DNA of 64,000 bases, from positions 1,426,001-1,490,000 of the forward strand of contig CANMVD010000001.1 of assembly GCA_947501275.1 (NCBI GenBank), read 5' to 3'. Of this stretch, positions 9,111 to 27,411 are shown piece after piece (position 1 is the first letter of the stretch; each line of letters starts with the position of its first letter). The stretch comes from an uncultured Tateyamaria sp. Its GTDB lineage: Bacteria > Pseudomonadota > Alphaproteobacteria > Rhodobacterales > Rhodobacteraceae. The notes under the pieces were generated by a model. That model made no database searches, was not told the DNA's origin, and saw only the letters and a program-made list of their open reading frames with translations. The position numbers were made by a program, and so were the translations under genes.

Positions 9111-9324
9111 ATATGCAGCATCTAACTAAAAAAATCGCCTGACAAGTGTGCAGAATGAAAAGTCTTAGTAATTTCACCTATAGGTGGCGCGCCCAAACGC
9201 TGCTGGATGGTGCCTTGGCGCATCGTCATGTTAAAAACCGATTTTGGGGTTCGCTGTTCCGTTTGATCGATTTTTCTTCGTATAGTGCAGCCTGCAACAC
9301 ATTTGGAATGAGACGCGTTTGATT

Positions 9325-10023: not shown

Positions 10024-10406
10024 CTCAGCTTGACCGTGCCCGAAGACAGGCCCACAGACATCGACAGGTTGCCTTCGTTGATCAACCAGCGGCGCAATTC
10101 ATAGGCTTTGACGCCAGCGACGTGCATCGGGTCTGCGTCAGCAAAGGCTTTGGCCGCTTCCCAACTTTCAGCGCGCCAGACTTGAAACCCGATGCCCGAC
10201 ATTTCAATCCCTGCTTCGTCTGACAATGGGCCGGACATGACCAAGTTCCCGGATGCCTCCTGAGAGGTCATGTAAGCGACGTGCTCCTTGAGGTGTTCAA
10301 ACATGGCTTCAGGGTCACCCACGGGGCGGCTGGTCACGACAAAAACCTCAAAGGCGAGTGCGCCGCGGTCGCGGGCAATTCCCTTGTATTCGGCGAATGT
10401 AGGCAT
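10020..10406 (-). CDS. YCII-related domain protein
   Basis: 128 residues with the dimeric alpha/beta-barrel YCII fold: FEVFVVTSRP at the start, a central SGPLSDEAG, and the ending MHVAGVKAYELRRW. The family is related to muconolactone isomerase. Members often sit in degradation clusters as small isomerases, lactonases or dehalogenase-like enzymes, but the activity here is not known. ATG 10406 is chosen because AAGGACT lies seven bases upstream; the frame is open to 10448. It is divergent from the FAH gene across an 87-base spacer with a palindrome. Confidence 0.85.
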   Translation of the reverse strand: MPTFAEYKGIARDRGALAFEVFVVTSRPVGDPEAMFEHLKEHVAYMTSQEASGNLVMSGPLSDEAGIEMSGIGFQVWRAESWEAAKAFADADPMHVAGVKAYELRRWLINEGNLSMSVGLSSGTVKLS

Positions 10407-10426
10407 GGTTGAGTCCTTTACGGCAA

Positions 10427-10440
10427 AAATATCGATATTA
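10427..10440. promoter_or_regulatory. Candidate operator in divergent promoter region
   Basis: AATATCGATATT at 10428-10439 is a perfect 12-bp palindrome, and the match continues imperfectly outward with CAAA on the left and TTTG on the right. It sits between the divergent YCII (start 10406) and FAH (start 10494) genes. Its AT-rich dyad form suits a winged-helix dimer such as the GntR protein encoded at 9325. The assignment to that regulator is inference. Confidence 0.5.
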
Positions 10441-10493
10441 TTTGACATGAAGTCAGATTACCGTCAAAAATTCAAGAAACGAGGAGACGTTTG

Positions 10494-11378
10494 ATGCGAT
10501 TCATGGTGGGGAGTGGGGCAAACGGCTCGGCTGTTTATTTGGTGAATGGTGAGGTGGCGGTGAACCTGACTGCGCTTGAGCCCGGCCTTGGCACCGATCT
10601 AATGCCCCTCGTGGACGGCCAATTTGATGCGGAGTCTCTTTCGGCGCGCGCGGTTGACGCCCCTAGCGAACCGGTTGCCAACATCACCCCGATGCTGCCA
10701 ATCGCCCGTCCGGGCAAGATCGTGTGCCTTGGTTTGAACTATGTCGACCATATCAAGGAAGGCGGATACGAGATCCCGACCTACCCTGCGCTGTTCATGC
10801 GATCTAGTACGTCCATGATTCCTGCCGGGGCACCGATGGTCCGTCCGTCTTGCTCGGAGCAGTTGGATTATGAGGCCGAGTTGATGTTGATCATTGGCAA
10901 GGGCGGCAAACATATCGCCGAAGCAGATGCGTTGGACCACGTCTTTGGCTACACAATCTTTAATGATGGGTCCGTGCGTGAGTACCAACGCAAGACGCAT
11001 CAGTGGACACCCGGAAAGAATTTTGACGCAACCGGCCCCATCGGTCCCATGGTTGTGACCCCGGACGAATTGCCCGCCGGTGCACAGGGTCTCAAGATCG
11101 AAAGCCGCGTGGGCGATGAGATCCTGCAAAGCGCTGTGACGTCCGATATGCTGTGGACCGTGGAGCGCACAATCGCTGCGATTTCGGAGTATTCCACACT
11201 GGAGCCTGGCGACATGATCGCCATGGGCACGCCCCCCGGTGTAGGCCACGCGAAAAAGCCCAAACCGCGCTGGTTGCGCCCTGGCGAGGTCGTCGAGATC
11301 GAGATTGAAGGCATTGGCATTTGCGCCAACCCGATTGTGGCCGAAGAAGATATGGCCGCCGGAAAGGCCGCTGAATGA
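10494..11378 (+). CDS. Fumarylacetoacetate hydrolase family protein
   Basis: 294 residues. The N-terminal ~70 residues form the small domain. The FAH catalytic domain follows, with KIVCLGLNYVDHIKE, the metal-binding LDYEAELMLIIG and GYTIFNDGSVREYQ, and the closing GTPPGVG and LRPGEVVEIEIEG. The family hydrolyses or isomerises 2-oxo acids and acylpyruvates, typically at the end of aromatic-ring degradation (HpcE/HpaG, ureidoglycolate lyase-like). The ATG follows GAGGAGA by seven bases. It is the first gene of the plus-strand operon and ends in an ATGA overlap with the nitroreductase gene. Substrate not determined. Confidence 0.9.
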   Translation: MRFMVGSGANGSAVYLVNGEVAVNLTALEPGLGTDLMPLVDGQFDAESLSARAVDAPSEPVANITPMLPIARPGKIVCLGLNYVDHIKEGGYEIPTYPALFMRSSTSMIPAGAPMVRPSCSEQLDYEAELMLIIGKGGKHIAEADALDHVFGYTIFNDGSVREYQRKTHQWTPGKNFDATGPIGPMVVTPDELPAGAQGLKIESRVGDEILQSAVTSDMLWTVERTIAAISEYSTLEPGDMIAMGTPPGVGHAKKPKPRWLRPGEVVEIEIEGIGICANPIVAEEDMAAGKAAE

Positions 11379-12040
11379 ACGTGATGAGCGATCAGGAGCA
11401 GGCCGCAGTCCGTGCTGCTGCCCAAGAGGGGTTTCGTGATCTCAAGACCCGACTGTCTGAGCTGGATGCTGACGGAATTGACCTGATCCTGCGCGATGCA
11501 CGCTCGCACTATGCGTGGAAAGACACACCGGTGTCAGACGATTTGTTACGTCAGATCTACGAGATCACGGCGCAGGGCCCCACCAGCATGAACACCTGCC
11601 CTGCGCGGTTCACCTTTGTGCGGTCTCAGGCGGGCAAGGAGCGTTTGGCCAAGGCTTTGAAACCCGCGAACGTGCCCAAGGTCATGGGCGCGCCGGTGAC
11701 GGCTATCATTTCCTATGACACCGCGTTTTGGACCCATCTGCCGTTTCTTTTCCCACACGAGGATCGTCGCCACTTCTTTGAGGGCAAAACGGCACATATC
11801 GAGGATACGGCATTCCGCAATTCAACCCTGCAAGGGGCGTATTTCATGATCGCTGCACGCGCGGTTGGTCTGGACGTGGGGGCGATCTCGGGTTTTGACA
11901 ACGCGATTGTTGATGCCGAATTCTTTGCCGACACCAGCTTCAAATCCAACTTTCTGTGCAACATTGGCCATGCCGATGAAAACGCGCTTTTTCAAAAGTT
12001 GCCACGCTTTGGGTTTGAAGATGTCTGCGAGGTTATCTGA
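11375..12040 (+). CDS. Nitroreductase family protein, RutE/malonic semialdehyde reductase-like
   Basis: 221 residues of the FMN-dependent nitroreductase fold. The SHYAWKDTPVSDDLLRQIYE opening, the ITAQGPTSMNTCPARFTFV stretch and the AFRNSTLQGAYFMIAARAVGLDVGAISGF core resemble RutE-type reductases, which reduce small semialdehydes with NAD(P)H, more than classical nitroarene reductases. Here it lies between an FAH hydrolase and an OsmC protein with overlapping starts, so it should act in the same pathway, perhaps reducing a ring-cleavage product. A second ATG at 11384 is possible. Confidence 0.82.
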   Translation: MNVMSDQEQAAVRAAAQEGFRDLKTRLSELDADGIDLILRDARSHYAWKDTPVSDDLLRQIYEITAQGPTSMNTCPARFTFVRSQAGKERLAKALKPANVPKVMGAPVTAIISYDTAFWTHLPFLFPHEDRRHFFEGKTAHIEDTAFRNSTLQGAYFMIAARAVGLDVGAISGFDNAIVDAEFFADTSFKSNFLCNIGHADENALFQKLPRFGFEDVCEVI

Positions 12041-12498
12041 TGGCAGATGTCAAAATGAAAACCACCGTCAAGTTGCGCGCCAAGGCCAAAGGGACAAGCC
12101 ATTCGCGCACTGACGTTGCCATCCGCGACCTAACCGCCGTGATCGACGAACCTACCGAACGGGCCGGAACGAACGCTGGGCCGACGCCGACGGATACGGC
12201 CCTTGCGGCCTTGGCCGGTTGCACCAACGTGATTTCCAACAAGGTTGCGGCCAAGATTGGGGCAGATTTGGGTCACCTTGATATTGATCTTGTCTGCGAC
12301 TTTGATCGCCGCGGCGTGACGCTGGAAGAAGAAATTGATGTGCCTTTCGTGGCCATGACGCAAACCGTCACAGCGCATGGCACACTCAGCACCGAACAAT
12401 TGAACGAGGTGGCCGCAGAAGTCGCCAAATACTGCCCGCTGTCCAAGCTGTTTGAGCAGGCGGGTACCGCATTGGAAACGATCTGGCGCAAAGCCTGA
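12040..12498 (+). CDS. OsmC family protein
   Basis: 152 residues with the OsmC/Ohr fold. The two family cysteines are present: Cys61 in LAGCTNV and Cys132 in KYCPLSKLF. In Ohr proteins such a pair reduces organic hydroperoxides with thiol recycling. This member is of the broader OsmC group, for which other thiol chemistry is also known. It overlaps the preceding stop by one base (TGATG), so it is cotranslated. In a dioxygenase cluster it could protect against peroxide by-products. Confidence 0.85.
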   Translation: MADVKMKTTVKLRAKAKGTSHSRTDVAIRDLTAVIDEPTERAGTNAGPTPTDTALAALAGCTNVISNKVAAKIGADLGHLDIDLVCDFDRRGVTLEEEIDVPFVAMTQTVTAHGTLSTEQLNEVAAEVAKYCPLSKLFEQAGTALETIWRKA

Positions 12499-12529
12499 AC
12501 ACAGGCGCGCCGAAATGGGAGGATTGAAC

Positions 12530-13612
12530 ATGATCGCACAAAACATGCGCCGCCTGGCATTGGGCGTGGCATTGGCAGGTTTGACTGCATTGCCCGCGCT
12601 GGCCACAGAAACCATCCGTGCCGTTGTCATTGACGGCTACCCGGCGCGCGCGCTTTGGGTCAAGGAATTCACTGGTTTCTTCATCCCGGAGGTCGACAAG
12701 CGTCTCGCTGAAAGCGGCAACTATAAAATGGACTGGCAAGAAAGCTATGGTGGCTCCATCGTGAAACCCAAGGGCGTGCTCGAAGGGGTGGAGTTGGGTC
12801 TTGGTGATATCGGCATCGTCACCACGATTTTCCACAGCTCCAAGCTGCCAAGTCAGGCTATTTCAGCAGTCACGCCATTTATTGCAGCTGACGCGCGGGC
12901 GGTGGCCAAGGCCGTTGACGAGATCGCCAAAGAATACCCGACAATGCAGAACGAGTTTGCGGCCCAGAACCAGGTCTATCTCGCAACAGGTGTGGTGCTT
13001 GACACCTATCAAGTGTTTTCCAAGCAGCCCATCAACGCGCTGTCGGACATGGAAGGCGGCAAGGTCGCTGGTGCGGGCATGAACCTGCGCTACCTTGAGG
13101 GCATCGAAGGTGCTGCCGGTGTCCGCGGCGGTCTGACGGACTTTTACAACATGCTCCAGACCGGGCTTGTGGATCACGCGATGCTGTGGCCAGAGGCTGC
13201 CAAGACCTTCAAGATCGCTGAGGTTGCACCCTACATGTTGCGCGTTGATCTGGGGGCCGTGAACTCCAAAACCGTGACCGTGAACAAAGACTACTGGGAT
13301 GGTTTGCCCGATGAGGTCAAAGGCGTGCTGCAAGAGGTGGCTGTACTGTACCGTGACCATGTTGCCGGTCTTGCCATGGACCGGGCAGAAGCCAGCCGTC
13401 AGGCCTATGTCGATGGTGGAGGTACAATTGTCGACATGGATGCGGATCAGCGTGCCGCGTGGGCCAATGCCATGCCCAATATAGCTGCCGAGTGGGCCGC
13501 AAATCTGGACGGCAAGGGCGAGCCAGGCACCGAGATGCTGAACGCTTACCTCGCCAAGTTGGCAGCAGCCGGCTTTACGCCTGTACGTGATTGGACAGCG
13601 GCCACGAACTGA
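12530..13612 (+). CDS. TRAP transporter substrate-binding protein (DctP family)
   Basis: 360 residues with a Sec signal peptide ending ALPALA. The mature protein (TIRAVVIDGYPARALWVKEF) has the DctP two-lobe fold, with the conserved region around LTDFYNMLQTGLVDHAMLWPEAAK. It captures an organic acid in the periplasm for the DctQM membrane pair. ATG 12530 is preceded by GGGAGGA. Longer reading frames upstream lie inside the OsmC gene and are rejected. The gene order suggests that the cargo feeds the ring-cleavage and FAH enzymes on either side, so an aromatic or cyclic carboxylate is a reasonable guess. Confidence 0.88.
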   Translation: MIAQNMRRLALGVALAGLTALPALATETIRAVVIDGYPARALWVKEFTGFFIPEVDKRLAESGNYKMDWQESYGGSIVKPKGVLEGVELGLGDIGIVTTIFHSSKLPSQAISAVTPFIAADARAVAKAVDEIAKEYPTMQNEFAAQNQVYLATGVVLDTYQVFSKQPINALSDMEGGKVAGAGMNLRYLEGIEGAAGVRGGLTDFYNMLQTGLVDHAMLWPEAAKTFKIAEVAPYMLRVDLGAVNSKTVTVNKDYWDGLPDEVKGVLQEVAVLYRDHVAGLAMDRAEASRQAYVDGGGTIVDMDADQRAAWANAMPNIAAEWAANLDGKGEPGTEMLNAYLAKLAAAGFTPVRDWTAATN

Positions 13613-13646
13613 TCGCGGCCGGTCCTCAATAGGAGCCCGCGACGCC

Positions 13647-14183
13647 ATGAACGCAGCCCTGAATGCGCTTTCGCGCCTGACCCACGGCATCGCCATTTCG
13701 GCCAATGCCGTGGGAACCCTTGTTGTGCTGGGCCTCGTGGCGATCGTGAACTACGACGCCATCGCCCGGAGCCTGTTCAACGCGCCCTTCCTTGGTGCGG
13801 TTGAGGTGGTTCAGTTTTCCATGGTCCTGATTGTGTTTCTGCAATTGCCGGACGTATGCCGCGTCAATCGTCTGACGCGTTCGGATGGTTTCTTGCTGGT
13901 GATCGGCGGCAAATACCCCGGCGTTGCACGGGCCATGCGGTTTTTCATCAACGGGATTTCGGCGGCATTCATGACGCTGGTGGCCGTTGCGATTTTCCCT
14001 GAGTTCCTCAAGATGGTCGAAACGCAGGACTTCTTTGGTGTGCCGGGAGTCTTTACCGCGCCATGGTGGCCGATCAAATTGGTCATCTTTGCAAGCGCCG
14101 TACTGTGTGTGTGCATCTTTGTGCTCAAGATCCTTGAAGGGCGTGATACGGATAGCGACGCCACCAAAGGAGACAGCGCGTGA
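13647..14183 (+). CDS. TRAP transporter small permease (DctQ)
   Basis: 178 residues with four predicted membrane helices (NAVGTLVVLGLVAIV, VEVVQFSMVLIVFLQLP, FFINGISAAFMTLVAVAIF and the last near IKLVIFASAVLCVCIFVL). This is the usual DctQ layout. It joins DctM to form the membrane part of the Na+-coupled importer. The start at 13647 has AGGAG eleven bases upstream. Its stop overlaps the GTG of dctM (GTGA). Confidence 0.88.
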   Translation: MNAALNALSRLTHGIAISANAVGTLVVLGLVAIVNYDAIARSLFNAPFLGAVEVVQFSMVLIVFLQLPDVCRVNRLTRSDGFLLVIGGKYPGVARAMRFFINGISAAFMTLVAVAIFPEFLKMVETQDFFGVPGVFTAPWWPIKLVIFASAVLCVCIFVLKILEGRDTDSDATKGDSA

Positions 14184-15487
14184 GCCCGGTTGAAATCGGC
14201 GCTTTGTCCGTCGTCGCCATCGTCTTCCTTGTCTATATGGGCCTCTATATCCCCATCGCTCTGGGCATTGTCAGTTTCGTGTCGATCTGGCTGATGCGGG
14301 ACAACTTCGATCTGGCCATGAATCTGCTGAAAATCGCCGTGGGCGACAGCGTCATGGAATATACGTTCGCTACCGTGCCGCTGTTCACCTTCATGGGGCT
14401 CATCGTGTCCAAGGCGGGGTTGGGCGCGGACATCTACGAGGTGATGAACTCGGGCTTTCGCAAAGTCAAAGGCGGCATTGGCATGGCCACGGTCGGGGCC
14501 AATGCGGTCTTTGCCGCCGTGACGGGCTCGTCCATCGCTTCGGCATCGGTCTTTTCCAAAGTGTCCGTGCCGCAGATGTTGAGTTACGACTATAACCCGC
14601 GCTTTGCCGTTGGTGTTGTTGCAGGCAGTTCGGTGCTGGGCATGATCATTCCGCCCTCTGCGATGCTGATCATCTATTCATTCGTGGCGGAACAGTCGGT
14701 GGGCGAGATGTTCCTCGCGGGTGTTGTGCCGGGCATTTTGCTGGCCATCGCCTATGTCGTCGCCATCTGGGCCATGGGCCGCTTTGCGCCCTCATATGTC
14801 GGCGGTCGCTCTGGCGAGGATATGGAGTGGATGACCCCGGCAGAGATCGCGGGCAAGACGCTGCCGACACTCTCTTTGATCGCTGTGGTTCTGGGGGGCA
14901 TATATACCGGCTGGCTGACGCCGGTTGAAGCAGGGGCGGCGGGTGCCTTGTTGGGCCTCATCATTGCAGTGTTGAGAGGTCGGATGAACCTGCGCGGGTT
15001 CTGGGAGGCACTGCTGGAGACAGGACACATCACAGCGGCCATTCTGTTCCTGATTACTGCCGCTTCGATCTACAGCCGTATGCTGGGCCTTGCCGGTCTG
15101 CCCAATCAGTTGGGCGATATGCTGGGGTCAAGCCAACTCAGCTTTTTCTGGATCATGTTTGTCTACGTGCTTTTGATGATCTTTCTGGGCACGCTGCTTG
15201 ATACGGCATCCATCATCCTGATTGTGGTGCCGCTGTTCTTGCCGTTGATCGAGCCGATGGGCCTGTCGCTGGTCTGGTTTGGTATCGTGACCGTTGTGGG
15301 GGCCGAGATTGGATTGTTGACACCACCCCTCGGGATCAGTTGTTTTGTGATCAAGGCCACGCTGGATGATGACCGCATATCGCTCAAGGACGTCTTTATC
15401 GGTGCCTTCCCGTTTGCCCTTGTCATGCTGGTGGTCCTGATCCTGTTGATCCGCTTCCCGTCGCTCAGCACGGCCATTTTGCCTTAG
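14180..15487 (+). CDS. TRAP transporter large permease (DctM)
   Basis: 435 residues, about twelve membrane helices. Typical DctM stretches are AVTGSSIASASVFSKVSVPQ, PRFAVGVVAGSSVLGMIIPPS and the C-terminal TPPLGISCFVIKA. This subunit carries the substrate and the sodium ions across the inner membrane. The GTG start overlaps dctQ by four bases. The dioxygenase gene follows after only ten bases with its own GGAG site, so the transporter and ring-cleavage enzyme are in one transcript. Confidence 0.92.
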   Translation: MSPVEIGALSVVAIVFLVYMGLYIPIALGIVSFVSIWLMRDNFDLAMNLLKIAVGDSVMEYTFATVPLFTFMGLIVSKAGLGADIYEVMNSGFRKVKGGIGMATVGANAVFAAVTGSSIASASVFSKVSVPQMLSYDYNPRFAVGVVAGSSVLGMIIPPSAMLIIYSFVAEQSVGEMFLAGVVPGILLAIAYVVAIWAMGRFAPSYVGGRSGEDMEWMTPAEIAGKTLPTLSLIAVVLGGIYTGWLTPVEAGAAGALLGLIIAVLRGRMNLRGFWEALLETGHITAAILFLITAASIYSRMLGLAGLPNQLGDMLGSSQLSFFWIMFVYVLLMIFLGTLLDTASIILIVVPLFLPLIEPMGLSLVWFGIVTVVGAEIGLLTPPLGISCFVIKATLDDDRISLKDVFIGAFPFALVMLVVLILLIRFPSLSTAILP

Positions 15488-15497
15488 GAGAAAACTC

Positions 15498-16367
15498 ATG
15501 CGCACTGTCACCAAAGACAACATCACCGATGTTTTCATGGGCTATTTTGGCGAAGATACCGATCCGCGCCTGCGCGAGGTCATGCAAAGCCTTGCATCCC
15601 ATCTGCATGCCTTTGCCAAGGAGGTGAATCTGACCCATGCCGAGTGGCAAAAGGGGATCGAGTTTCTGGAATTCGCAGGTCGTATCTCCGATGAGCACCG
15701 CCATGAATTTGTGCTGCTGTCAGATGTGCTTGGCCTGTCTTCGCTGGTCGACATGGTGAACTCGGTGCCTGAAGGCACGTCTTCGTCTGTGCTTGGACCC
15801 TTCCACATCTCGGGTGCGCCGCCGATTGAATTTGGTGCTGACATGAAGGGTGAATACGAGGGGCAGGTGCTGCTGGCCTGTGGACGTGTAACAGACCCCG
15901 ATGGCAACCCGATTGAAGGGGCAGAGATCGACATCTGGCAAACAGCGCCCAACGGTCTGTATTCCAGTCAGGACCCCGATCAGGACATCTATTCCTTCCA
16001 TGGTATCCAGACCACGGGTGCGGATGGCCGCTATGGCTTTACCACCGTCAAACCTGTCAGCTACACTGTGCCGACGGATGGACCGGTTGGGGAAATCCTG
16101 CGCGCGACAGGCCGCCACCCATGGCGCCCCTCGCATCTTCATTACATCATCAAGGCGCCGGGTTTCCGGCCCCTCGTGACCGAAATTTTCCCGGATGATG
16201 ATCCCTACCTCGACGAAGACACGGTCTTTGGTGTGCGCAGTGATCTGGTGATGAAATATGTCGAATGCCAGCCCGGTGATTTCCCCGATGGCTATGTGCT
16301 GAGCGGCAAAGTCAATGACACGTTCCTGCGCGCAGACTTTGATCTGAAACTGGTGCCGGAAGGCTAG
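15498..16367 (+). CDS. Intradiol ring-cleavage dioxygenase, hydroxyquinol 1,2-dioxygenase-like
   Basis: 289 residues. Residues ~20-95 form the catechol-dioxygenase N-terminal helical domain (LGLSSLVDMVNS resembles hydroxyquinol enzymes). The beta-sandwich catalytic domain follows. The non-haem Fe(III) ligands are all visible at expected spacing: Tyr155 (PNGLYSS), Tyr189 (PVSYTVP), and His213 and His215 (PSHLHY). It opens catechol- or hydroxyquinol-type rings between the hydroxyls using O2. Chlorocatechol as substrate cannot be excluded. Last gene of the operon; the transglycosylase gene converges six bases away. No maleylacetate reductase or muconate cycloisomerase gene is nearby. Confidence 0.88.
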   Translation: MRTVTKDNITDVFMGYFGEDTDPRLREVMQSLASHLHAFAKEVNLTHAEWQKGIEFLEFAGRISDEHRHEFVLLSDVLGLSSLVDMVNSVPEGTSSSVLGPFHISGAPPIEFGADMKGEYEGQVLLACGRVTDPDGNPIEGAEIDIWQTAPNGLYSSQDPDQDIYSFHGIQTTGADGRYGFTTVKPVSYTVPTDGPVGEILRATGRHPWRPSHLHYIIKAPGFRPLVTEIFPDDDPYLDEDTVFGVRSDLVMKYVECQPGDFPDGYVLSGKVNDTFLRADFDLKLVPEG

Positions 16368-17615: not shown

Positions 17616-19664
17616 CTATTTGCCGCCGCGTGGTTTGGCGGGCTTGCGCGAAGGATAGCCGCTGCCGCGCTGTTTGGCTGCAGCCGCCTGACGGGCGCGG
17701 TTTTTCTTGCTCGACGGTTTTCCAACTGGCGGTTTTGGGCCGCGCGAGACGTTGTCGTCCCTATGCGCGTGTTTGGGTTTACCTGCGCCTGTCGGCTTGC
17801 CCGCGCTGTTCGGCTTGCCGGTGCGGGGCTTGCGCGCCTTGTGTACGGCCGGGTCGGACGGCGCGGCTGGTTTGGCCCACTTCTTGGCGGCAGGTTTGGC
17901 ACCGGCCTTTGGTTTTCTGGTGCGCGGTGCCGGATCGTCATTCCAGTCCACGGGTCTGGTTGTGCCGGGGCGGTTGCCTTTCGGGCGCTCTGTCTTGGGA
18001 CGGTCAGCTTTCGGAGGCTTTGGGGTATCGTCGCGTGCGAAGGGTTTCTTGTCCGTTGTGCGCGGCGAGTTTGTTCGGTGCGGTGCGCGTTCAAATGTCG
18101 GCACGCCTTGCAAGCGCGTCAGCGCAGCACCATCCTCGACTGTCATGGCCGGACCAACGGCAGCCAGAAAGCCATCAACAGCCGCTTCGCGAATTTCGAC
18201 AAGGGATACATCCGGCTGGATACGGATCGCGCCAATATCATCCCGCGACACATCACCCGCCTTGCACAACATCGGCAACAGTCGGCGTGGTTCGGCCCCA
18301 ACAGCCCGCCCACCCGCAACCGAGAACCAGACGCTTGGGCCAAAGGCGACGCGGGGCTTGGGGGCTTCGTTTACGTCCGACAGTTCTTCAGGCGCAGTGT
18401 GGCGTTCGCGGTAGAGACGCAGATAGGCGGCGGCAATCTGGTCGGGCGTGAACGTGGTGGTAAGCGTGTCGACCGTCGATTTGTCATCTTCCGAGACGGC
18501 TTCGTGCCAGTCTGGGCTTGCCAGCATGCGTTCTTCGTCGCGGGCCATGACATCTTCGGCGCTTGGCGCATCGGCCCATTCCGCGCTCAGTTTTGCCCAG
18601 CCCAGAAGGCGCTGTGCCTTTTTCAAGACGGCAGGCGTGGCAATCATCACACTGACGCCACTGCGTCCGGCACGGCCTGTACGGCCCGAGCGGTGCAGCA
18701 GTGTTTCCTGATTGCTGGGCAGTTCCGCGTGGATCACCAGATCGAGGTTGGGCAGGTCAATGCCACGCGCCGCGACATCTGTGGCCACACAGACCCGGGC
18801 GCGTCCATCGCGCATGGCTTGCAGCGCATTTGTGCGCTCGCCTTGCGTCAATTCTCCTGACAAGGCGACAACCGAAAACCCTCGATTGGACAGACGTGTT
18901 GTGAGGCGGTTCACCATGGCGCGGGTGTTGCAGAACACGATTGCATTGGGCGCTTCATAATAGCGCAGTACGTTGATGATGGCGTTTTCTCCATCGCGGC
19001 CAGACACGCGCAAGGCGCGGTAGGTGATGTCGGCGTGCTGCTTTTCGCCACTGGTTGTTGCAATGCGGATGGCGTCGCGCTGATAGCTTTTGGCGAGCTT
19101 GGCAATCGCGGCGGGGACTGTGGCCGAGAACAACAGTGTTTGCCGTTCAGACGGCGCGCTTTCGAGGATGAATTCGAGGTCTTCGCGAAAGCCAAGATCG
19201 AGCATCTCGTCTGCTTCATCCAGCACAACGGCCTTCAATGCGTTGAGGTCAATCGAGCCGCGCATGATGTGGTCGCGCAGGCGGCCGGGCGTGGCCACGA
19301 CGATATGCGCACCACGTGCCAGCGCACGGCGTTCATCGCGCATATCCATGCCACCGACCGTCGAGGCCACAACCGCTCCGGCTTTTTCAAAAAGCCATGC
19401 CAATTCGCGTTTGACCTGCAAGGCCAGTTCGCGGGTCGGCGCGATCACGAGGGCAAGCGGTGCATCCGCACCATCAAAGACATCCGCCTCACCAAGCAGG
19501 TTGGGCGCAATCGCAAGGCCAAAACCCAATGTCTTGCCCGATCCGGTTTGGGCTGAAACCAACAAATCCTTGCCCACTGTTTCCGGGGCAATCACCGCCT
19601 CTTGCACGGCAGTGAGGGTGGTGTAGCCACGCGCGTCCAGCGCATCTGCGAGGGTTTTCTTCAC
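17616..19664 (-). CDS. DEAD-box ATP-dependent RNA helicase (DeaD-like)
   Basis: 682 residues from a GTG start. The core has Walker A SAQTGSGKT (~residue 36), DEAD in VVLDEADEMLDLGF, the SAT motif (LLFSATVP) and HRSGRTGRAG in the second RecA-like domain. A DbpA/CsdA-type RNA-binding domain follows (~470-545: GAIRIQPDVSLVEI). The last ~130 residues are a low-complexity Lys/Arg/Pro tail likely to bind RNA loosely. Such enzymes help ribosome assembly and RNA decay, often in the cold. The basic tail is much richer in Pro and Lys than the core. Confidence 0.93.
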   Translation of the reverse strand: MKKTLADALDARGYTTLTAVQEAVIAPETVGKDLLVSAQTGSGKTLGFGLAIAPNLLGEADVFDGADAPLALVIAPTRELALQVKRELAWLFEKAGAVVASTVGGMDMRDERRALARGAHIVVATPGRLRDHIMRGSIDLNALKAVVLDEADEMLDLGFREDLEFILESAPSERQTLLFSATVPAAIAKLAKSYQRDAIRIATTSGEKQHADITYRALRVSGRDGENAIINVLRYYEAPNAIVFCNTRAMVNRLTTRLSNRGFSVVALSGELTQGERTNALQAMRDGRARVCVATDVAARGIDLPNLDLVIHAELPSNQETLLHRSGRTGRAGRSGVSVMIATPAVLKKAQRLLGWAKLSAEWADAPSAEDVMARDEERMLASPDWHEAVSEDDKSTVDTLTTTFTPDQIAAAYLRLYRERHTAPEELSDVNEAPKPRVAFGPSVWFSVAGGRAVGAEPRRLLPMLCKAGDVSRDDIGAIRIQPDVSLVEIREAAVDGFLAAVGPAMTVEDGAALTRLQGVPTFERAPHRTNSPRTTDKKPFARDDTPKPPKADRPKTERPKGNRPGTTRPVDWNDDPAPRTRKPKAGAKPAAKKWAKPAAPSDPAVHKARKPRTGKPNSAGKPTGAGKPKHAHRDDNVSRGPKPPVGKPSSKKNRARQAAAAKQRGSGYPSRKPAKPRGGK

Positions 19665-19779
19665 GGGAAGCGGTCCTTTGGGTCAAAACGCACGGCCTAA
19701 GTGGGGCGCAAGGTGGCGGCTCTACGCGGTTGGGACAGTGTTGTCGAGGCGTCAAAGATGCATGGCTGCCTTGCTGTGC

Positions 19780-20457
19780 TCAGGCTTTGACCCGCCGAAA
19801 CGCAACCAACGCCCCGCGCGAGGGGCCAGGATCGTAGGTCAGGCCACTTTGTGACATGCGGTCAAATATCTTTTTGACCACCGCGCTGCTGTAGAGCCGT
19901 GGATGCAATTCCATGATCACATGCCAGACGTAACGTGGCCATTTTTGCTCGAACAGGTACTTTTCTGCCCCTTCGACGTCCATGATGACGACATCGGGAC
20001 GATGCAGGTTGAGCAGTTCGAAAACGCTGATCAGGGGCACTTCCACCAGCTCTTTGGGGTTGCTTGTCGCGTCGGCAATGGAAGAGCCCCAAAACGCCTT
20101 GCCGGCACGAAACAACACACTCTCTCCCTCCGCGGCGTCGCCTGCCACTGCTGCATGAACGATCTTGGTCGTTTGCGCTCCGTTGAGATCGAGGTTGTTG
20201 CGGATGATGGGCAGCGTGGCGGGATTGGCCTCGACGGTCAGGATATTGGACGGGTCCGTGATCTGGGCGCACACCGAACTGATGTAGCCAACGCCTCCAC
20301 CGAGTTCTAAAACGCGGTGCCCACGCTTGACCCGCATCCGCGCAGCCCGCGCCTCAGAGGATTCATAGCTGCCCTCGGACATCTTTTTCGTCAGATGCGC
20401 ATTCAGCAACTCGTCTGGGATGTCCAGTACGACATCTTTGATTTCAAATCGGGGCAT
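19780..20457 (-). CDS. FkbM-family SAM-dependent methyltransferase
   Basis: 225 residues with the SAM-binding motif I VLELGGGVGYIS (~residues 50-61), the acidic motif TVEANP, and the FkbM-type C-terminal region MDVEGAEKYLFEQ with ELHPRLY. The family O-methylates small molecules or sugars; the acceptor is unknown. The start at 20457 follows AGGAGG by three bases; upstream in-frame ATG 20514 lacks such a site. It lies 75 bases after the reductive dehalogenase gene on the same strand, so it could share its transcript. A different ancestry is equally possible. Confidence 0.82.
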   Translation of the reverse strand: MPRFEIKDVVLDIPDELLNAHLTKKMSEGSYESSEARAARMRVKRGHRVLELGGGVGYISSVCAQITDPSNILTVEANPATLPIIRNNLDLNGAQTTKIVHAAVAGDAAEGESVLFRAGKAFWGSSIADATSNPKELVEVPLISVFELLNLHRPDVVIMDVEGAEKYLFEQKWPRYVWHVIMELHPRLYSSAVVKKIFDRMSQSGLTYDPGPSRGALVAFRRVKA

Positions 20458-20532
20458 GGGCCTCCTCGGACCGGGGACAGCCGTCTTGTTGCATCTTCGG
20501 GCTGTGTGCAGCATCGGGTAGGGTGCATATAC

Positions 20533-23500
20533 TCACAGGTCGATCTCAATCACGCCGTTTGCATCTTTGGCGCGCGATTGGCACAGGATGATCCCGGTTT
20601 TGCGCTGTGCCTTGGACAATACGAAATCCCGGTGTTCGACATCGCCTGACACAAGGCCGCATTTACACACGCCGCAAATCCCGTCCGAACACTTGAGGTC
20701 CACAGCATAGCCATTTTCGATCAAGACATCGGCCGCAGTATTGTCGGCTGGCACTGTGAAGGTCTTGTTTGATCGCGCAAGACGCAAGGTAAAGTCAAAG
20801 TTCTCATATTCGGGCTGCTCGGGGACAGAGAAATACTCCAAATGCTGCGCATCCTCCGGGATGCCCGCGCGGGTCGCGGCAGTTGTCACGCTGCTCATGT
20901 AGTGGTCGGCTCCACAGGTGTACACGTGCCATCCCGGCTGATGACGCGACATGATTGCATCCATGTCTGCACGCGATCCTTCATCCGAGATGTGCAACTC
21001 AACCTTGTCCGCCCATGGGAAAGAGGACAGATCGTTCAGGAACCCCATCTTGGCCCGTGTGCGCCCCGAATAGTGTACCTCAAAGGATGCGCCTTTGGCA
21101 TGGAGTTCATGTGCCATTGCAAGCATCGGCGTAATGCCGATACCGCCCCCCATCAGGACGGAATGTGTGGCATCAGGCGCAAGCGGGAAGTGATTGATCG
21201 GACGCGAGACAAAGACGCGCCGCCCTTCATTGAAAATGCGGTGCATCAGTTTGGAGCCACCCCGCCCCTCGTCTTCGCGCAGCACAGCGATCTGGAAGTG
21301 TGAGCGATCTGCTGGATCGCCAGACAGGGAGTACTGCCGCAGGAAATCAGGTGCGACAACGATATCAAGATGCGCGCCCGCAGTCCAAACCGGCAGAGGT
21401 TGACCGTCGATGGGGGTGAATTCATATTTTGTAAGACCATCGCCCATGATCTCCGCTTTGGAGACGATGACCTGCAATACGGGGCTGTCCCCGTCGGCAG
21501 TATAGCGGTGCAACACTGGGTCGAGCGTGCCAGCGGCTGCACGGGCCTGATATTCCTCTGCCGTGATCAGTGCCTGATAGGCTTCGATACCCGCCTCGCG
21601 GTCCATGTGGAATGGATAGGGATGTGGATGCGGTGCCAGCGGAGCGGGGTAGACCGCAAGTGTCTGATCTTCGTATTTGAGATCGAGATCCTTTTGCAAC
21701 GAACGGGCGTTTACCGGAATACGTGTTGGACGGTAGCCACCTGCCTCGGTGATTTCCAGATCCCACCACCACTTCTTGACCGGGTTCAACGTGCCGTTTT
21801 CGACGTAATCGTCCAGCTTGGCCAGCAGAGGAGCGGCAGACGGCATATTCATCGCTGCCCACCGAAACGGCTTTTCGGCAAACAGGCCCTCAAGATTCCA
21901 CGGGCACGTTTTCATGCACCGCCCACACATAGCGCCACCGGGGGTCGTGATGCGGTAGGTGGTGCATTTCTGGCTGTCGGACTTCCAGATCTCGTAGCCG
22001 TTGAACATCAGCTTTGGCCCGGCCGTGATCGCACCCGAAGGACACTCGCGCGCGCACTTGTTGCAGGACTCGCAGAACTTTTGCAGGCCAAAGTCGATAG
22101 GTTTGTCGTGGGTCATCGGCAGGTCCGTGGTCACCACGCCCGACTTGAGGCGTGGCCCGAGGAACGGGTTCAGGATCACCTCGCCAATGCGGCTCACTTC
22201 TCCGAGGCCGGACAGCAGCAACAAGGGCGGTTGCAGTACTTCGCCGTCCAGCACCGTGTGAGCCTTGGCGCTATAGCCCAGATTGCGAATTTGTTTGGCA
22301 ATCACGCCGCCCAGCAAAGAGAACCGCAAGTAGGCACGCATGGATTGCGCAACTGCGATCCAATCGTCCCCCGACGACCCCTCCATGGTCTCATATCCCT
22401 GATCGATCAGCATCGAGATGGCGTGATCATGGGGCGGGTCCAACACTTCGCCACGCGCATCATGGCTGTACCATGCCCACTCGGGGCATCGCGAAATTCC
22501 TGCGGCGTCGATGCCCAGATAATAGCATGTCGCCTTGATCAGCGCGGCCGCGTCGTCGGGATCCACACAGGTTTTTTGCGGGGCGGGTTCACCGTCTTGC
22601 AGCAGCACAAATGCACCAAGCGCACGGCGTTGTGCAGCCGAAGGCGCCGCTTTGCGCACGTAGTATCCGCCGCGTGCAGCATCTTGCAGGTGTTTTCCCA
22701 TGTCTCCAAATGTCGCCCGCGCAAACATATCGGTGCGCTTGGGGACCCGGGCGACATTGGCCTCATCGATGTACGTTGTTGGGGTGTCGACCCGCTTGAG
22801 TGTCTCAAAAGGATGGGCACCATCGACAAAGCGCCGATCCTTGAAGGGCAGTGCGTTGCCAGCGTTCTTTGCAAACCCCTTGCCCATTTTCCACTGCAGT
22901 CCAAAGGCGGATTTGGGCTGATGTGAAAGCGCGGCAAGCGGTGCATCCGGCGCAACTTCAAACGTCGTGGTGATTGCGGCCAGTCCAAAGCGTGTGCCAA
23001 TGTAGGGGTGGGACAACTCGCCATTTTCCACCGTTGCAAGCCCTGCGGCGACAGCCAACCGATTGAGATCAACGTCGGAGGCCGAGACCGTGTGCCCACG
23101 GGCATCGAACCCCAAAACCCGCAGGTAATTGGACAGAACGATGGCGGTTTCTGCCGCCAGCAATCCGGCGCGATGGGCCTGTGCATCGTTGATCCAGTCC
23201 GCACCGGGTTCATCCGGTTGCGGGTCGCGTGGGTTTTCGTACAGTAAAACAATGGCGTGCGTGTGCGCATCGATGCCCGTAGGTGCAGCTTCCATCGATT
23301 CCTTGAGGTCCGCCATTGTCAGATCAATGCCGGCAGCCAAAGTCTTGGTCTGGCGGGTCTTCAAATCCTGCGCCAGACGGTCCACGTCCGGGTTCTTGTA
23401 CGGGCCATCCAGCACAGCCTCGCGTGGTAAAAGGCAAGTGCCGGTCAGGGCTGCATCACAGAAGTAGGAAAATGCCTTGAGATGTTCTGCGCGCTGCGTT

Positions 23501-23745
23501 GGATCGGCAGGGCATTCGGCGCGTTCGTCGTTGATCAACCCGTCGCGGATGGCATCCAGCATGGCCTGATGTTCGCGCATCGCATTCACGATAGAGTGGG
23601 GATCTTTGGCCCGCGTGAAAGACAGAGGTTGATGCGGTGGGACGGCATCGAGTCTCGCGGGTCCGGGCTGTCTGGCCAGCAATTCGGTTGGATACCTGCC
23701 CATGTGCACCGGGCGTGATTTGTCAGAAAAAAATCTGGCGGTCAT
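20533..23745 (-). CDS. Self-sufficient reductive dehalogenase (corrinoid/4Fe-4S RdhA fused to NAD(P)H:ferredoxin reductase and 2Fe-2S ferredoxin)
   Basis: 1070 residues. Residues ~1-690 form the reductive dehalogenase part. It has two 4Fe-4S motifs, Cys558/561/564/568 followed by Pro, and Cys594 with Cys607/610/614 (C-x12-C-x2-C-x3-CP). Upstream of these lie the family stretches NLGYSAKAH, LSGLGEVSRIGEV and TTDLPMTHDKPIDFG. The C-terminal part is a phthalate-dioxygenase-reductase type module: flavin site RQYSLSG (803-809), nucleotide site MGGGIGITPM (865-874), then a plant-type ferredoxin with Cys1019, 1024, 1027 and 1055. There is no Tat signal or membrane anchor, so the enzyme should be cytoplasmic and driven by NAD(P)H. 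This matches the catabolic, oxygen-tolerant class represented by NpRdhA and BhbA, which remove halogens from halophenols. Tyr426 and Lys484 are candidates for the catalytic pair by position only. Substrate unknown. Confidence 0.9.
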   Translation of the reverse strand: MTARFFSDKSRPVHMGRYPTELLARQPGPARLDAVPPHQPLSFTRAKDPHSIVNAMREHQAMLDAIRDGLINDERAECPADPTQRAEHLKAFSYFCDAALTGTCLLPREAVLDGPYKNPDVDRLAQDLKTRQTKTLAAGIDLTMADLKESMEAAPTGIDAHTHAIVLLYENPRDPQPDEPGADWINDAQAHRAGLLAAETAIVLSNYLRVLGFDARGHTVSASDVDLNRLAVAAGLATVENGELSHPYIGTRFGLAAITTTFEVAPDAPLAALSHQPKSAFGLQWKMGKGFAKNAGNALPFKDRRFVDGAHPFETLKRVDTPTTYIDEANVARVPKRTDMFARATFGDMGKHLQDAARGGYYVRKAAPSAAQRRALGAFVLLQDGEPAPQKTCVDPDDAAALIKATCYYLGIDAAGISRCPEWAWYSHDARGEVLDPPHDHAISMLIDQGYETMEGSSGDDWIAVAQSMRAYLRFSLLGGVIAKQIRNLGYSAKAHTVLDGEVLQPPLLLLSGLGEVSRIGEVILNPFLGPRLKSGVVTTDLPMTHDKPIDFGLQKFCESCNKCARECPSGAITAGPKLMFNGYEIWKSDSQKCTTYRITTPGGAMCGRCMKTCPWNLEGLFAEKPFRWAAMNMPSAAPLLAKLDDYVENGTLNPVKKWWWDLEITEAGGYRPTRIPVNARSLQKDLDLKYEDQTLAVYPAPLAPHPHPYPFHMDREAGIEAYQALITAEEYQARAAAGTLDPVLHRYTADGDSPVLQVIVSKAEIMGDGLTKYEFTPIDGQPLPVWTAGAHLDIVVAPDFLRQYSLSGDPADRSHFQIAVLREDEGRGGSKLMHRIFNEGRRVFVSRPINHFPLAPDATHSVLMGGGIGITPMLAMAHELHAKGASFEVHYSGRTRAKMGFLNDLSSFPWADKVELHISDEGSRADMDAIMSRHQPGWHVYTCGADHYMSSVTTAATRAGIPEDAQHLEYFSVPEQPEYENFDFTLRLARSNKTFTVPADNTAADVLIENGYAVDLKCSDGICGVCKCGLVSGDVEHRDFVLSKAQRKTGIILCQSRAKDANGVIEIDL

Positions 23746-23844
23746 ATTGTGTGCTCAGGCCCGGGAAAAGAGGATTCGCAAGGCTTGGAGTTTAGGACAG
23801 TTGTCAGCCAGCGCGACCAAATTCTCTGTGTTCTGCCCTGAGGG

Positions 23845-23857
23845 TTGGCTTTGCCAA
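23845..23857. promoter_or_regulatory. Candidate LysR-type operator upstream of the reductive dehalogenase
   Basis: TTGGC-TTT-GCCAA is a perfect 5-bp dyad with the T-N11-A form of LysR-type regulators. It lies 100 bases before the dehalogenase start, in the 167-base gap after the tRNA-Gln gene. No LysR gene is in the window, so the regulator would be encoded elsewhere. A short dyad of this kind can also occur by chance. Confidence 0.3.
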
Positions 23858-23912
23858 ATACAACAAAATGCCACCAGCGACGGAGCATCATAGCAAAATG
23901 ATTTTTGAGAAG

Positions 23913-23988
23913 TGGCTGGGACGGTAGGACTCGAACCTACAACCTACTGTACCAAAAACAGTTGATCTACCAATTGATCTACGTCCCA
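23913..23988 (-). tRNA. tRNA-Gln (anticodon UUG)
   Basis: The 76-base cloverleaf can be folded by hand. The 7-bp acceptor stem TGGGACG/CGTCCCA is fully paired, the D stem is GATC/GATC, and the anticodon stem ACTGT/ACAGT encloses the loop TTTTGGT with anticodon TTG. The T stem GTAGG/CCTAC has loop TTCGAGT. The discriminator is G and CCA is encoded. The gene is only about 47 percent GC (36 of 76), lower than the surrounding DNA. Its 3' end faces the reductive dehalogenase gene. Confidence 0.93.
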
Positions 23989-24066
23989 ACGTGAGCGGGG
24001 TCATACGCCGGGCGCGCGCATCGTTCAAGACCGATTCTGTCAAAAAATTACATGACATGCGTTGCG

Positions 24067-25395
24067 CTACTCTTGCTGCATGCTTTCGCGGTTCAGAAGG
24101 TCATCCTCCCCACGTTCTTCACGTTCTTGATTGATGATGCGTTCCAGCGCGGCCTCGTCCGTGGCCTGCACATCCTGTGCGGCCAGATCAGCCGACGGTG
24201 TGGCCTTGACCGGTGCGGGCGTTGGCGTGGTGGCATCAGAGGGCTGCGGCGCGCCAACACCCAGCACGCGCAACGTGTTTTCCGGCATCACAATGCCCGC
24301 ATTGTCAAAGGCCGCCAAAGACAGCCGCCATGCCTCGCTGCGCGCCTTGAGAAAGCTGGTCTCGTGCTGTGCAATCCACGCGGCGACATTGATGATGACT
24401 GCGCTGTCCCCAAGTTCTTCGATCCAGACGGATGGTTCGGGTGCGTCCAGCACAAATGGCAGGCTGCGTACGGTTTCCAGCGCGAGCGCCTGCGCGGCGG
24501 CCAGATCCGTGTCATAAGCTACGCCCAGCCCAATCAGAAAACGGCGTTCGTCGTTTCGTGTGTAGTTCACGATCCGGCTTTTGAAGACGGTAGAGTTGGG
24601 GATGCGGATATGGTTGCCATCAAAGCTGAGCAGGATGGTTGCCCGGCTTGTCAGGCGAATGACTTTGCCGATGTCGCCTTCGATCTCGACTGTGTCATTG
24701 GGCATGAAGGGTTGGCGAATGGACAGCATGATCGACGCGATAAAGTTCTCGACCGTATCCTTGACCGCAAAACCGATGGCCAGACCGACGATCCCTGCCG
24801 CCCCTAAGATCGTCCCAAGCAAGGCCGTCGCCCCGAGTATATCGAGCGCGATGACAATGCCGCCCACAAGAAACAACAGGCGCACGACCTGCCGGTAGAT
24901 GTCCGCGATAAATGCATTGGGCGCGAGCCGGTCCCAAGGGTAGCGCATGCGCGCCAGCACAAATCCCAGCACAGTCACAAGGACGAAGGCCAGAATAGCA
25001 ACTGTCGCCAAAGGCAGCAGGGCGATCATCTGCATCATGCGATCGCGGAACCGTTCGACAGCGGGGTTCAACCGTGCCACCACGTCCGTCGTTTCCGTCA
25101 CCTCGTTTTCGATGGCCACTACGCCTTCGACCCGGCCTGCCAAATCGTTGAGGCGCGTGGCGGTGGCCGCGTCTACTGTGGTCCCGCGCAGGGTCACGAT
25201 CCCTGATGAGACGGTCACCGTGACTTCTTCGTAGCCCTCCAGTTCGGACAGAATGTTGCGAATGCGTACCGCGATGGCTGCATCTTGGGTGGCGCTGTCG
25301 TCGACGGCGATGGTGCCTTGAGGCTGGTCGGTTGTCTGTTGCGCCGCCAGAGGAGAGGCGAGCAACAAGGCAATGAGGATCAGCGCGCGGATCAT
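24067..25395 (-). CDS. MscS-family mechanosensitive channel with N-terminal BON domain
   Basis: 442 residues. A Sec signal peptide (ending PLAAQ) precedes a BON domain at ~35-105 (LEGYEEVTVTVSSGIVTLRG, then GVVAIENEV). Membrane helices follow near 120-210, including the pore-lining glycine/alanine helix GAAGIVGLAIGFAVKD. The MscS beta domain starts with FMPNDTVEIEGDIGKV. The last ~60 residues are low-complexity and acidic. BON domains bind phospholipid or peptidoglycan at the envelope, so this channel may sense the periplasm or outer layers as well as tension. It overlaps the upstream quinone-reductase-like gene by four bases. Confidence 0.9.
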   Translation of the reverse strand: MIRALILIALLLASPLAAQQTTDQPQGTIAVDDSATQDAAIAVRIRNILSELEGYEEVTVTVSSGIVTLRGTTVDAATATRLNDLAGRVEGVVAIENEVTETTDVVARLNPAVERFRDRMMQMIALLPLATVAILAFVLVTVLGFVLARMRYPWDRLAPNAFIADIYRQVVRLLFLVGGIVIALDILGATALLGTILGAAGIVGLAIGFAVKDTVENFIASIMLSIRQPFMPNDTVEIEGDIGKVIRLTSRATILLSFDGNHIRIPNSTVFKSRIVNYTRNDERRFLIGLGVAYDTDLAAAQALALETVRSLPFVLDAPEPSVWIEELGDSAVIINVAAWIAQHETSFLKARSEAWRLSLAAFDNAGIVMPENTLRVLGVGAPQPSDATTPTPAPVKATPSADLAAQDVQATDEAALERIINQEREERGEDDLLNRESMQQE

Positions 25396-26487: not shown

Positions 26488-27411
26488 ATGGACACCCTAC
26501 GTACCCCCGACGATGCATTCGCGCACCTTTCGGGTTACACATTTGCGCCGCATTATATCGACGTAGACGACACCGAAGGTGGGACGTTGCGCGTACATTA
26601 CCTTGACGAAGGACCGCGGGGCGCCGCCCCCATCCTGTGTATGCACGGGGAGCCGACATGGAGTTACCTCTATCGTAAGATGATCCCGGTCTTTACGGCC
26701 GAGGGTCATCGGGTGATCGCGCCGGACCTAGTGGGGTTTGGTAAATCCGACAAACCCACGGCACGGACGGATTACACTTATGCACGGCATGTCGCGTGGA
26801 TGAGCGATTGGCTGCGCAAGGTTGATCTGCAGGGCATCACCTTGGTGTGTCAGGATTGGGGTGGGCTGATTGGATTGCGCCTGCTTGCAGCGTTTCCCGA
26901 GCGGTTTGCACGATTGGTGGTGGCCAATACTGCACTGCCGACAGGGAGCCAACCGATGGGCCCGGCATTTGAGGCGTGGCGTGAGTACTCTCAGACGGTT
27001 GAGGATTTCAATGCGGGCCGAATTGTCTACGGCGGGACCACACGCAAGATCTCTGAGGACGAAGTCGCGGCTTATAACGCGCCGTTCCCGGATGATCGCT
27101 ACAAGGCGGGGGCACGACAATTTCCGACATTGGTGCCAGCCTCGCCCGATGATCCGGAGGCCCCGGCCAATCGCGCAGCGTGGCAGGTGCTTGACCGGTT
27201 GGAACTGCCTGTGCTGACCGCCTTTGGCGCGGATGACACGATCATGGCGGGTGTCGATACGGTGTTTCAAAAGCGCATGACCGGCGCCGCGGGACAGGCG
27301 CATACCGTGCTGCCCGATGCGGGCCATTTCCTGCAGGAAGACGTGGGACCGGAGCTTGCCGAAGTAGTTCTAAAGTTTATCGACGCAACAAAGGGCCAGG
27401 GCAGTACCTGA
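26488..27411 (+). CDS. Haloalkane dehalogenase (subfamily I type)
   Basis: 307-residue alpha/beta hydrolase that would cleave carbon-halogen bonds with water, releasing halide and an alcohol. The oxyanion motif HGEPTW (53-58) and the nucleophile elbow CQDWGG with Asp123 and halide-binding Trp124 identify the family. Trp164 in the cap is a second candidate halide ligand, and the acid and base are likely Asp250 (GADD) and His280 (AGHF). A strong AAAGGAGT site lies eight bases before the ATG. Epoxide hydrolases share the fold, but the E-P-T-W and D-W pairs argue for a dehalogenase. Natural substrate unknown. Confidence 0.9.
   Translation: MDTLRTPDDAFAHLSGYTFAPHYIDVDDTEGGTLRVHYLDEGPRGAAPILCMHGEPTWSYLYRKMIPVFTAEGHRVIAPDLVGFGKSDKPTARTDYTYARHVAWMSDWLRKVDLQGITLVCQDWGGLIGLRLLAAFPERFARLVVANTALPTGSQPMGPAFEAWREYSQTVEDFNAGRIVYGGTTRKISEDEVAAYNAPFPDDRYKAGARQFPTLVPASPDDPEAPANRAAWQVLDRLELPVLTAFGADDTIMAGVDTVFQKRMTGAAGQAHTVLPDAGHFLQEDVGPELAEVVLKFIDATKGQGST

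Follow-up and report, generated by a model that had tools for sequence, protein, structure and literature searches.

A predicted soluble, self-sufficient reductive dehalogenase of the BhbA/JtRdhA kind in an uncultured Tateyamaria

Introduction

What is a reductive dehalogenase doing in the genome of an aerobic-looking alphaproteobacterium, and which halogenated compounds might it act on? The question is raised by a 64,000-nucleotide stretch of DNA from an uncultured Tateyamaria sp. of the Rhodobacteraceae (assembly GCA_947501275.1, contig CANMVD010000001.1, positions 1,426,001 to 1,490,000), referred to here as the window, in which a gene for a 1070-residue protein, rdhA, was singled out by an earlier, sequence-only reading as encoding a soluble dehalogenase fused to its own reductase. 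As judged by its sequence, the protein is a soluble, self-sufficient reductive dehalogenase (RdhA) of the catabolic type, of the same kind as BhbA and JtRdhA, and in all likelihood this single, B12-dependent chain takes bromine or iodine off phenols at the expense of NAD(P)H. The enzyme is genuine but ordinary, as its type has already been purified from a marine bacterium and is common in the host family.

Domain architecture and family identity

An open reading frame of exactly the extent given by the sequence-only reading is present in the window, on the minus strand (Table 1). Its product matches the NCBIfam reductive dehalogenase profile TIGR02486 with 188.7 bits, above the cut-off of 160.35, and in a search against solved structures the top match is NpRdhA (4ras; 516.4 bits, E 1.4e-153), with the best stretch at residues 160-736 and a second aligned stretch at residues 4-107. 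The C-terminal residues ~760-1067 match P450-fused reductases and phthalate dioxygenase reductase (PDOR; 2pia, 195.7 bits over residues 760-1067), while Pfam places Fer4_7 at residues 558-617 and Fer2 close to the C-terminus. Profile and structure scores of this size exclude chance, and taken together the domain and structure matches set the order along the chain as a degenerate RdhA copy, the RdhA core, two [4Fe-4S] clusters, a flavin mononucleotide (FMN)/NAD(P)H reductase and a [2Fe-2S] ferredoxin. The fusion of a corrinoid dehalogenase, a flavin reductase and a ferredoxin proposed by the sequence-only reading is thus borne out by the matches to TIGR02486, 4ras, 2pia, Fer4_7 and Fer2.

The degenerate copy is recognized by a second, weaker TIGR02486 match (residues ~81-270, profile positions 5-199, 25.4 bits, E 1.8e-5 for the genome). 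A vestigial duplicate domain at that position is described as a trait of catabolic RdhAs, NpRdhA being likewise duplicated (PMC10463259).

A scan of a genome collection gave 533 stretches coding for relatives at E <= 1e-3, some of them less than full length, and the best 80 loci were taken from these. Altogether 87 loci (the window and L005-L090) were gene-called; L035, which is cut off by a contig end, and L043 yielded no rdhA, and in L090 the wrong gene was picked. Tree, pocket and conservation counts therefore refer to 84 proteins, the window protein and 83 homologues, and neighbour-cluster counts to 85 loci. The RQYSL and GGGIGITP motifs of the reductase can be followed across the homologue alignment, and the stretch 108-159, which separates the two blocks aligned to NpRdhA, has a length of 51-52 residues in all 84 sequences; it possibly corresponds to an insert that, in JtRdhA, has been described as specific to the fusion. 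Every trait of a self-sufficient catabolic RdhA that can be read from a sequence is found in the protein, which places it in the RdhA-PDOR fusion class.

Catalytic residues and cluster cysteines

The catalytic equivalents were read by position from the alignment with NpRdhA (4ras), the roles of whose active-site residues are described in PMC7565698. The sequence-only reading had put forward Tyr426 and Lys484 as candidates for the catalytic pair, and this assignment has to be replaced: the true equivalents are Y472 and K534, joined by R598, whereas Tyr426 is conserved yet not the catalytic tyrosine and position 484 is variable (lysine in 39 of the 84 sequences). The assignment of K534 is backed by the K488Q structure 6zy0, found in the same structure search. 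In addition, S422 and M423 of NpRdhA correspond to S468 and M469, and both are kept in 84/84 sequences. Loss of the catalytic tyrosine and lysine had been held decisive against a dehalogenase; both residues are retained, as is R598. The cluster cysteines are likewise intact at all twelve positions listed in the sequence-only reading, and they are kept throughout the 84 sequences, the only deviating row among 85 aligned being the misassigned gene of L090.

Table 1. Features of the rdhA locus, in window positions
Feature	Position	Strand	Basis
rdhA-PDOR fusion gene, predicted self-sufficient reductive dehalogenase, 1070 residues	20533..23745	minus	ATG start, open reading frame and domain/profile matches
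Vestigial duplicate RdhA domain, residues ~81-270	22936..23505	minus	second, weak TIGR02486 match
52-residue stretch 108-159, where NpRdhA has ~10	23269..23424	minus	gap between aligned NpRdhA blocks
Y472, putative proton donor (= NpRdhA Y426)	22330..22332	minus	NpRdhA alignment; 84/84
K534, putative phenol-binding/catalytic lysine (= NpRdhA K488)	22144..22146	minus	NpRdhA alignment; 84/84
R598, putative phenol-binding arginine (= NpRdhA R552)	21952..21954	minus	NpRdhA alignment; 84/84
Two [4Fe-4S] motifs, C558/561/564/568 and C594/607/610/614	21895..22074	minus	Pfam and alignment
FMN/NAD(P)H reductase module, PDOR-like, residues ~757-975	20821..21477	minus	2pia match; RQYSL and GGGIGITP motifs
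[2Fe-2S] ferredoxin domain, C1019/1024/1027/1055	20536..20793	minus	Fer2, 8e-10, at residues 990-1060
FkbM-type methyltransferase frame, starting 18 bases after the rdhA stop	19780..20514	minus	profile matches
tRNA-Gln(TTG), upstream of rdhA	23913..23988	minus	border with the segment differing in the same-genus genome

Comparison with characterized dehalogenases

The architecture is known as 'full-length' or 'self-sufficient' catabolic RdhA, and most catabolic RdhAs are described as having it, the listed members including Ruegeria pomeroyi and Tropicibacter phthalicicus (PMC10463259). JtRdhA from Jhaorihella thermophila, published in 2023, shares the absence of a twin-arginine (Tat) signal, the duplicated RdhA domain, the two [4Fe-4S] motifs, the fused PDOR and the tyrosine, lysine and arginine of the active site, a likeness drawn from its published description and not from sequence identity; JtRdhA has been assayed, while the present enzyme is known from its sequence. 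JtRdhA carries out NADPH-dependent debromination and deiodination of phenols under aerobic or anaerobic conditions with 1:1 coupling, and the chlorinated compounds tested on it are reported as inhibitors only (PMC10463259).

BhbA of Comamonas sp. 7D-2, which belongs to the bromoxynil pathway and is encoded on plasmid pBHB, matches over the full length with 51.3% identity and agrees in domains, catalytic triad and cysteines and nearly in insert length, but it differs in the pocket (F340, S362, S465 and A498). Its gene adjoins those for protocatechuate 4,5-dioxygenase, and the plasmid that carries them has been typed as conjugative. NpRdhA of Nitratireductor pacificus pht-3B (PDB 4RAS, 6ZXU) shares the RdhA part (516 bits), the triad, the two clusters and, according to PMC10463259, the vestigial domain; it differs in that the gap between its two aligned blocks is shorter by ~42 residues and in having no fused reductase. 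Of the earlier assignment to an NpRdhA/BhbA type, the catabolic kind and the match to BhbA therefore stand, but NpRdhA is without the fused reductase (PMC10463259), so that in architecture the proper counterparts are BhbA and JtRdhA.

A further Tat-less marine RdhA, Ros_A3X954 of Roseobacter sp. MED193, debrominates 2,6-dibromophenol. It is a different enzyme, with its cluster motifs at residues 283-345 and no fused reductase mentioned in the available part of its description (PMC13101508); the present fusion, too, has a homologue in that strain, at 70% identity (L067). Ros_A3X954 is reported to be oxygen-sensitive (PMC13101508), and oxygen tolerance should thus not be assumed for every Tat-less RdhA.

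Proposed reaction and likely substrates

Taken as a whole, the evidence is best explained by NAD(P)H-driven, cobalamin-based reductive dehalogenation of ortho-halogenated phenols, a reading in which confidence is high; JtRdhA and NpRdhA serve as models for how cofactors are bound, for the route of the electrons and the mechanism, and for the tolerance of oxygen and the class of substrate. A hydride from NAD(P)H would be passed to FMN in the C-terminal reductase, and from there single electrons would travel by way of the [2Fe-2S] cluster and both [4Fe-4S] clusters until they reach the base-off cobalamin of the RdhA core. The substrate, an ortho-halogenated phenol, is predicted to bind so that its halogen sits on the cobalt while S468, K534 and R598 secure the oxygen of the phenol, and Y472 would donate the proton, upon which halide and phenol would be released. 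By the same analogy, the most probable substrates are 4-hydroxyaryl acids with bromine or iodine in the ortho position, such as bromo-4-hydroxybenzoate and bromo-4-hydroxyphenylacetate, and simple bromophenols.

The dehalogenated products could enter the 4-hydroxybenzoate and homogentisate routes of the host, whose genome encodes PobA (667.4 bits) and HmgA (625.2 bits) outside the rdhA locus. The cobalamin chelatase CobN is also above its cut-off in the host genome (1003 bits, its neighbours included in the frame). The homogentisate cluster of the host (L113, 5787-13174) comprises HmgA, identified by profile, and three genes labelled by eye: an MhpA-like FAD monooxygenase, FAH and a maleylacetoacetate isomerase.

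Genomic context and biological role

In the host, rdhA is solitary, with tRNA-Gln and an MscS channel gene upstream and the FkbM-type frame downstream. As the sequence-only reading had noticed, no cognate regulator is nearby: none is found among the frames adjoining rdhA in the window, and the nearest regulator among the scanned window proteins is a GntR gene at 9319, more than 10 kb away.

The surroundings of the relatives are more varied. Of 155 flanking proteins, 137 were scanned, the 18 omitted ones being mostly from near-duplicate Ruegeria loci or very long frames. Among the scanned proteins are eight MarR_2, six TRAP DctM, five 4-hydroxybenzoate 3-monooxygenase (PobA), two HpaH and two maleylacetoacetate isomerase matches, so a minority of the relatives adjoin MarR, TRAP-transporter or 4-hydroxybenzoate hydroxylase genes, and LysR genes lie beside some. 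A PobA-like cluster occurs in at least 8 of 85 loci, and HmgA- and MhpA-cluster genes flank rdhA in several relatives. The PobA, HmgA, MhpA, MarR and LysR cluster labels were given by eye, those of PobA, MarR, LysR and DctM being confirmed for the scanned immediate flanks, and all neighbour counts are lower bounds, as flank size is unequal between loci because of contig ends. BhbA and the homologue of Nitratireductor OM-1 are located among ring-cleavage genes.

Several observations weigh against the explanation proposed above. No recognized catabolic or regulatory gene lies directly beside rdhA, the adjoining FkbM frame is not conserved, and the nearest ring-cleavage dioxygenase cluster is ~4 kb away on the other strand. 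The neighbours of the relatives are highly variable, with 135 Pfam families in the 137 flanking proteins, and families unconnected with aromatics, such as GerE (5), LamB/YcsF (4), glycosyltransferase (4) and SelO (3), turn up roughly as often as PobA in these counts, which are without a background control. Finally, the substrate pocket differs from those of NpRdhA and BhbA at several positions, so that the substrate may differ too.

The alternative that fares best accepts the same enzyme but assigns it a different role, in which bromophenols or another halo-aromatic would be detoxified rather than used for growth, and the dehalogenated phenol might remain unused. The solo locus with no catabolic gene directly adjoining it fits this role, as do the MarR-type genes next to several relatives. 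MarR-type regulators are often tied to phenolic stress. Against it stand the PobA, HpaH, maleylacetoacetate isomerase and TRAP-transporter genes adjoining some relatives, and the ring-cleavage clusters that hold BhbA and the OM-1 homologue. The chance of a detoxifying role is put somewhat below even. The PobA and transporter genes by some relatives also provide the survey with its substrate hypothesis.

The substrate pocket

Eleven pocket positions were transferred from the NpRdhA alignment and read in the 84 sequences. BhbA and the OM-1 protein have FFSVSSMYAKR (2/84), and the remaining 82 pockets are MFYVVSMYVKR (49) or close variants (33), among them that of an Aminobacter plasmid protein of only 58% identity. 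The survey thereby sets the BhbA type apart from all the others, a division that can be tested. It is improbable that the same corrinoid reductase architecture serves a pocket shifted to a substrate other than ortho-halophenols: M340, Y362, V465 and V498 are unlike both NpRdhA and BhbA, and the 82 proteins have these residues or a closely similar set in common, but the residues expected to bind the oxygen of the phenol and to provide the proton are invariant across all 84. JtRdhA, likened to the window protein by its published architecture, acts on bromo- and iodophenols (PMC10463259).

For dehalogenation of ortho-halophenols, the pocket may nevertheless bear on the number of halogens. Position 465 aligns with A419, the residue of NpRdhA next to the second bromine; a methionine there moved the relative preference to mono-halogenated substrates and did not raise the activity on them (PMC7565698). 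The V465-type pocket may by inference lean to mono-halogenated substrates. JtRdhA is reported to prefer a dibrominated acid (PMC10463259).

Respiratory and epoxyqueuosine reductase alternatives

A respiratory reductive dehalogenase acting as terminal reductase is very unlikely. The core is homologous to PceA (99.9 bits), but no Tat motif is present in the first 40 residues by motif inspection (not a signal-peptide predictor), and no convincing RdhB-like frame was found among those of 45-160 residues sought in 19300-24200. The sole small frame above threshold (98 residues, score 1.63) lies inside rdhA on the same strand and out of frame. Hydropathy is not membrane-like either, no stretch of the RdhA exceeding a mean of 1.34 over 19 residues. 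Motif, hydropathy and small-frame inspection thus agree with the earlier statement that a Tat signal and a membrane-anchor gene are missing. The internal duplication and the fused NAD(P)H reductase also contradict a respiratory enzyme, which is rejected, as it was by the sequence-only reading, on the Tat motif and RdhB anchor not being found.

Least probable of all, with hardly any weight left, is an epoxyqueuosine reductase (QueG) or a QueG-derived enzyme: QueG and RdhA are described as one class of cobalamin enzymes (PMC10463259) and the QueG profile TIGR00276 matches weakly, but its 23.5 bits are far under the cut-off of 200 while TIGR02486 exceeds its own with 188.7, and a separate QueG (341 residues, 421.4 bits) is encoded elsewhere in the host genome, which settles in favour of RdhA an identity that the earlier reading had named as fatal to its proposal.

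Prevalence and phylogeny

The sequence-only reading regarded the enzyme type as rare, which the counts contradict. Besides the 533 stretches of the collection, 192 of 394 Rhodobacteraceae genomes match at E <= 1e-50, partial matches included, and a near-full-length copy (a single match of at least 1000 of the 1070 residues) is present in at least 145 of the 394 sampled family genomes, host included. With such counts the enzyme cannot be called rare. Reductive dehalogenase genes had already been reported for 7.8% of Alphaproteobacteria in a survey of 2018 (PMC6299228). Among 72,556 plasmid records, eight hold a place that spans 80% or more of the protein, BhbA on pBHB being one. Another of the eight, the plasmid homologue of Yoonia sp. 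SS1-5 (L090, 12001-15208), is split over two matching pieces, lacks an annotated gene beneath and is probably a broken frame. These findings support the view that reductive dehalogenation is not solely an anaerobic speciality, as its NAD(P)H-driven form is common in the host family, and such enzymes may share in the recycling of natural organobromines.

In a tree built by a quick method and midpoint-rooted for drawing, the window protein groups with proteins of Marinovum algicola and a Planktomarina metagenome-assembled genome (support 99, highest identity 80%). BhbA stands apart, paired with the protein of Nitratireductor OM-1, although BhbA, OM-1 and Aminobacter all have long branches, which may join falsely. 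Seven sequences of the Granulosicoccaceae (Gammaproteobacteria) lie among the alphaproteobacterial ones, which requires four label changes, three of them forced by well-supported branches. This placement suggests, without proving it, that fused rdhA was transferred between Alphaproteobacteria and Granulosicoccaceae, the sequences being from metagenome-assembled genomes or uncultured isolates.

A broader idea can be put forward only tentatively, namely that the fused RdhAs of largely marine Alphaproteobacteria and Granulosicoccaceae form a distinct pocket subtype (M340/F341/Y362/V465/V498 versus F/F/S/S/A in BhbA) that was passed between bacterial classes and may be a major aerobic sink for natural bromo- and iodophenols, on the surfaces of algae for instance, and that its valine where the second halogen would lie tilts it to mono-halogenated 4-hydroxyaryl acids. 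A macroalgal association is a conjecture for which some record titles are suggestive; the terms 'reductive dehalogenase' and 'RdhA' are absent from the main text of an article about how macroalgal microbiomes metabolize halogens (PMC10919026). No description of the pocket split or of the PobA association was found in the literature searched, and as subscription papers were mostly outside it, this is weak evidence of novelty.

Further features of the locus

The FkbM-type frame and rdhA possibly form a co-transcript. As a conserved operon partner FkbM is rejected, its cluster holding no gene of the other loci compared. The genome G240, the sole other one marked as same genus among the genomes listed, has no rdhA match. 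At the corresponding place (L111) the order of tRNA-Gln and MscS is kept, but other genes follow the tRNA and the rdhA-FkbM segment (19780-23988) is not there, which indicates that this stretch is variable. Foreign base composition was not found, with a G+C content of 57.7-58.9% in 2-kb windows over the gene and 56.6-62.5% over 12000-34000. Consensus promoter and terminator scans gave numbers close to those of shuffled sequences (2 versus 1.7 and 5 versus 4.6).

On the plus strand, 9319-16367 holds the GntR gene and genes for a FAH-family hydrolase, a malonic semialdehyde reductase-like nitroreductase, OsmC, a TRAP transporter and a hydroxyquinol 1,2-dioxygenase-like enzyme (PnpC 253 bits, 1tmx 240 bits), and is possibly an aromatic-catabolism cluster. 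It is not counted as a dedicated rdhA pathway, because it lies on the other strand, three unrelated genes intervene and the dioxygenase shares no cluster with other loci. A DhlA-type haloalkane dehalogenase is encoded at 26488-27411 on the plus strand (NF002043, 474 bits against a cut-off of 265; 6f9o, 400 bits; QDWGG at the presumed nucleophile), 2.7 kb from rdhA, so that two unrelated dehalogenases lie close by.

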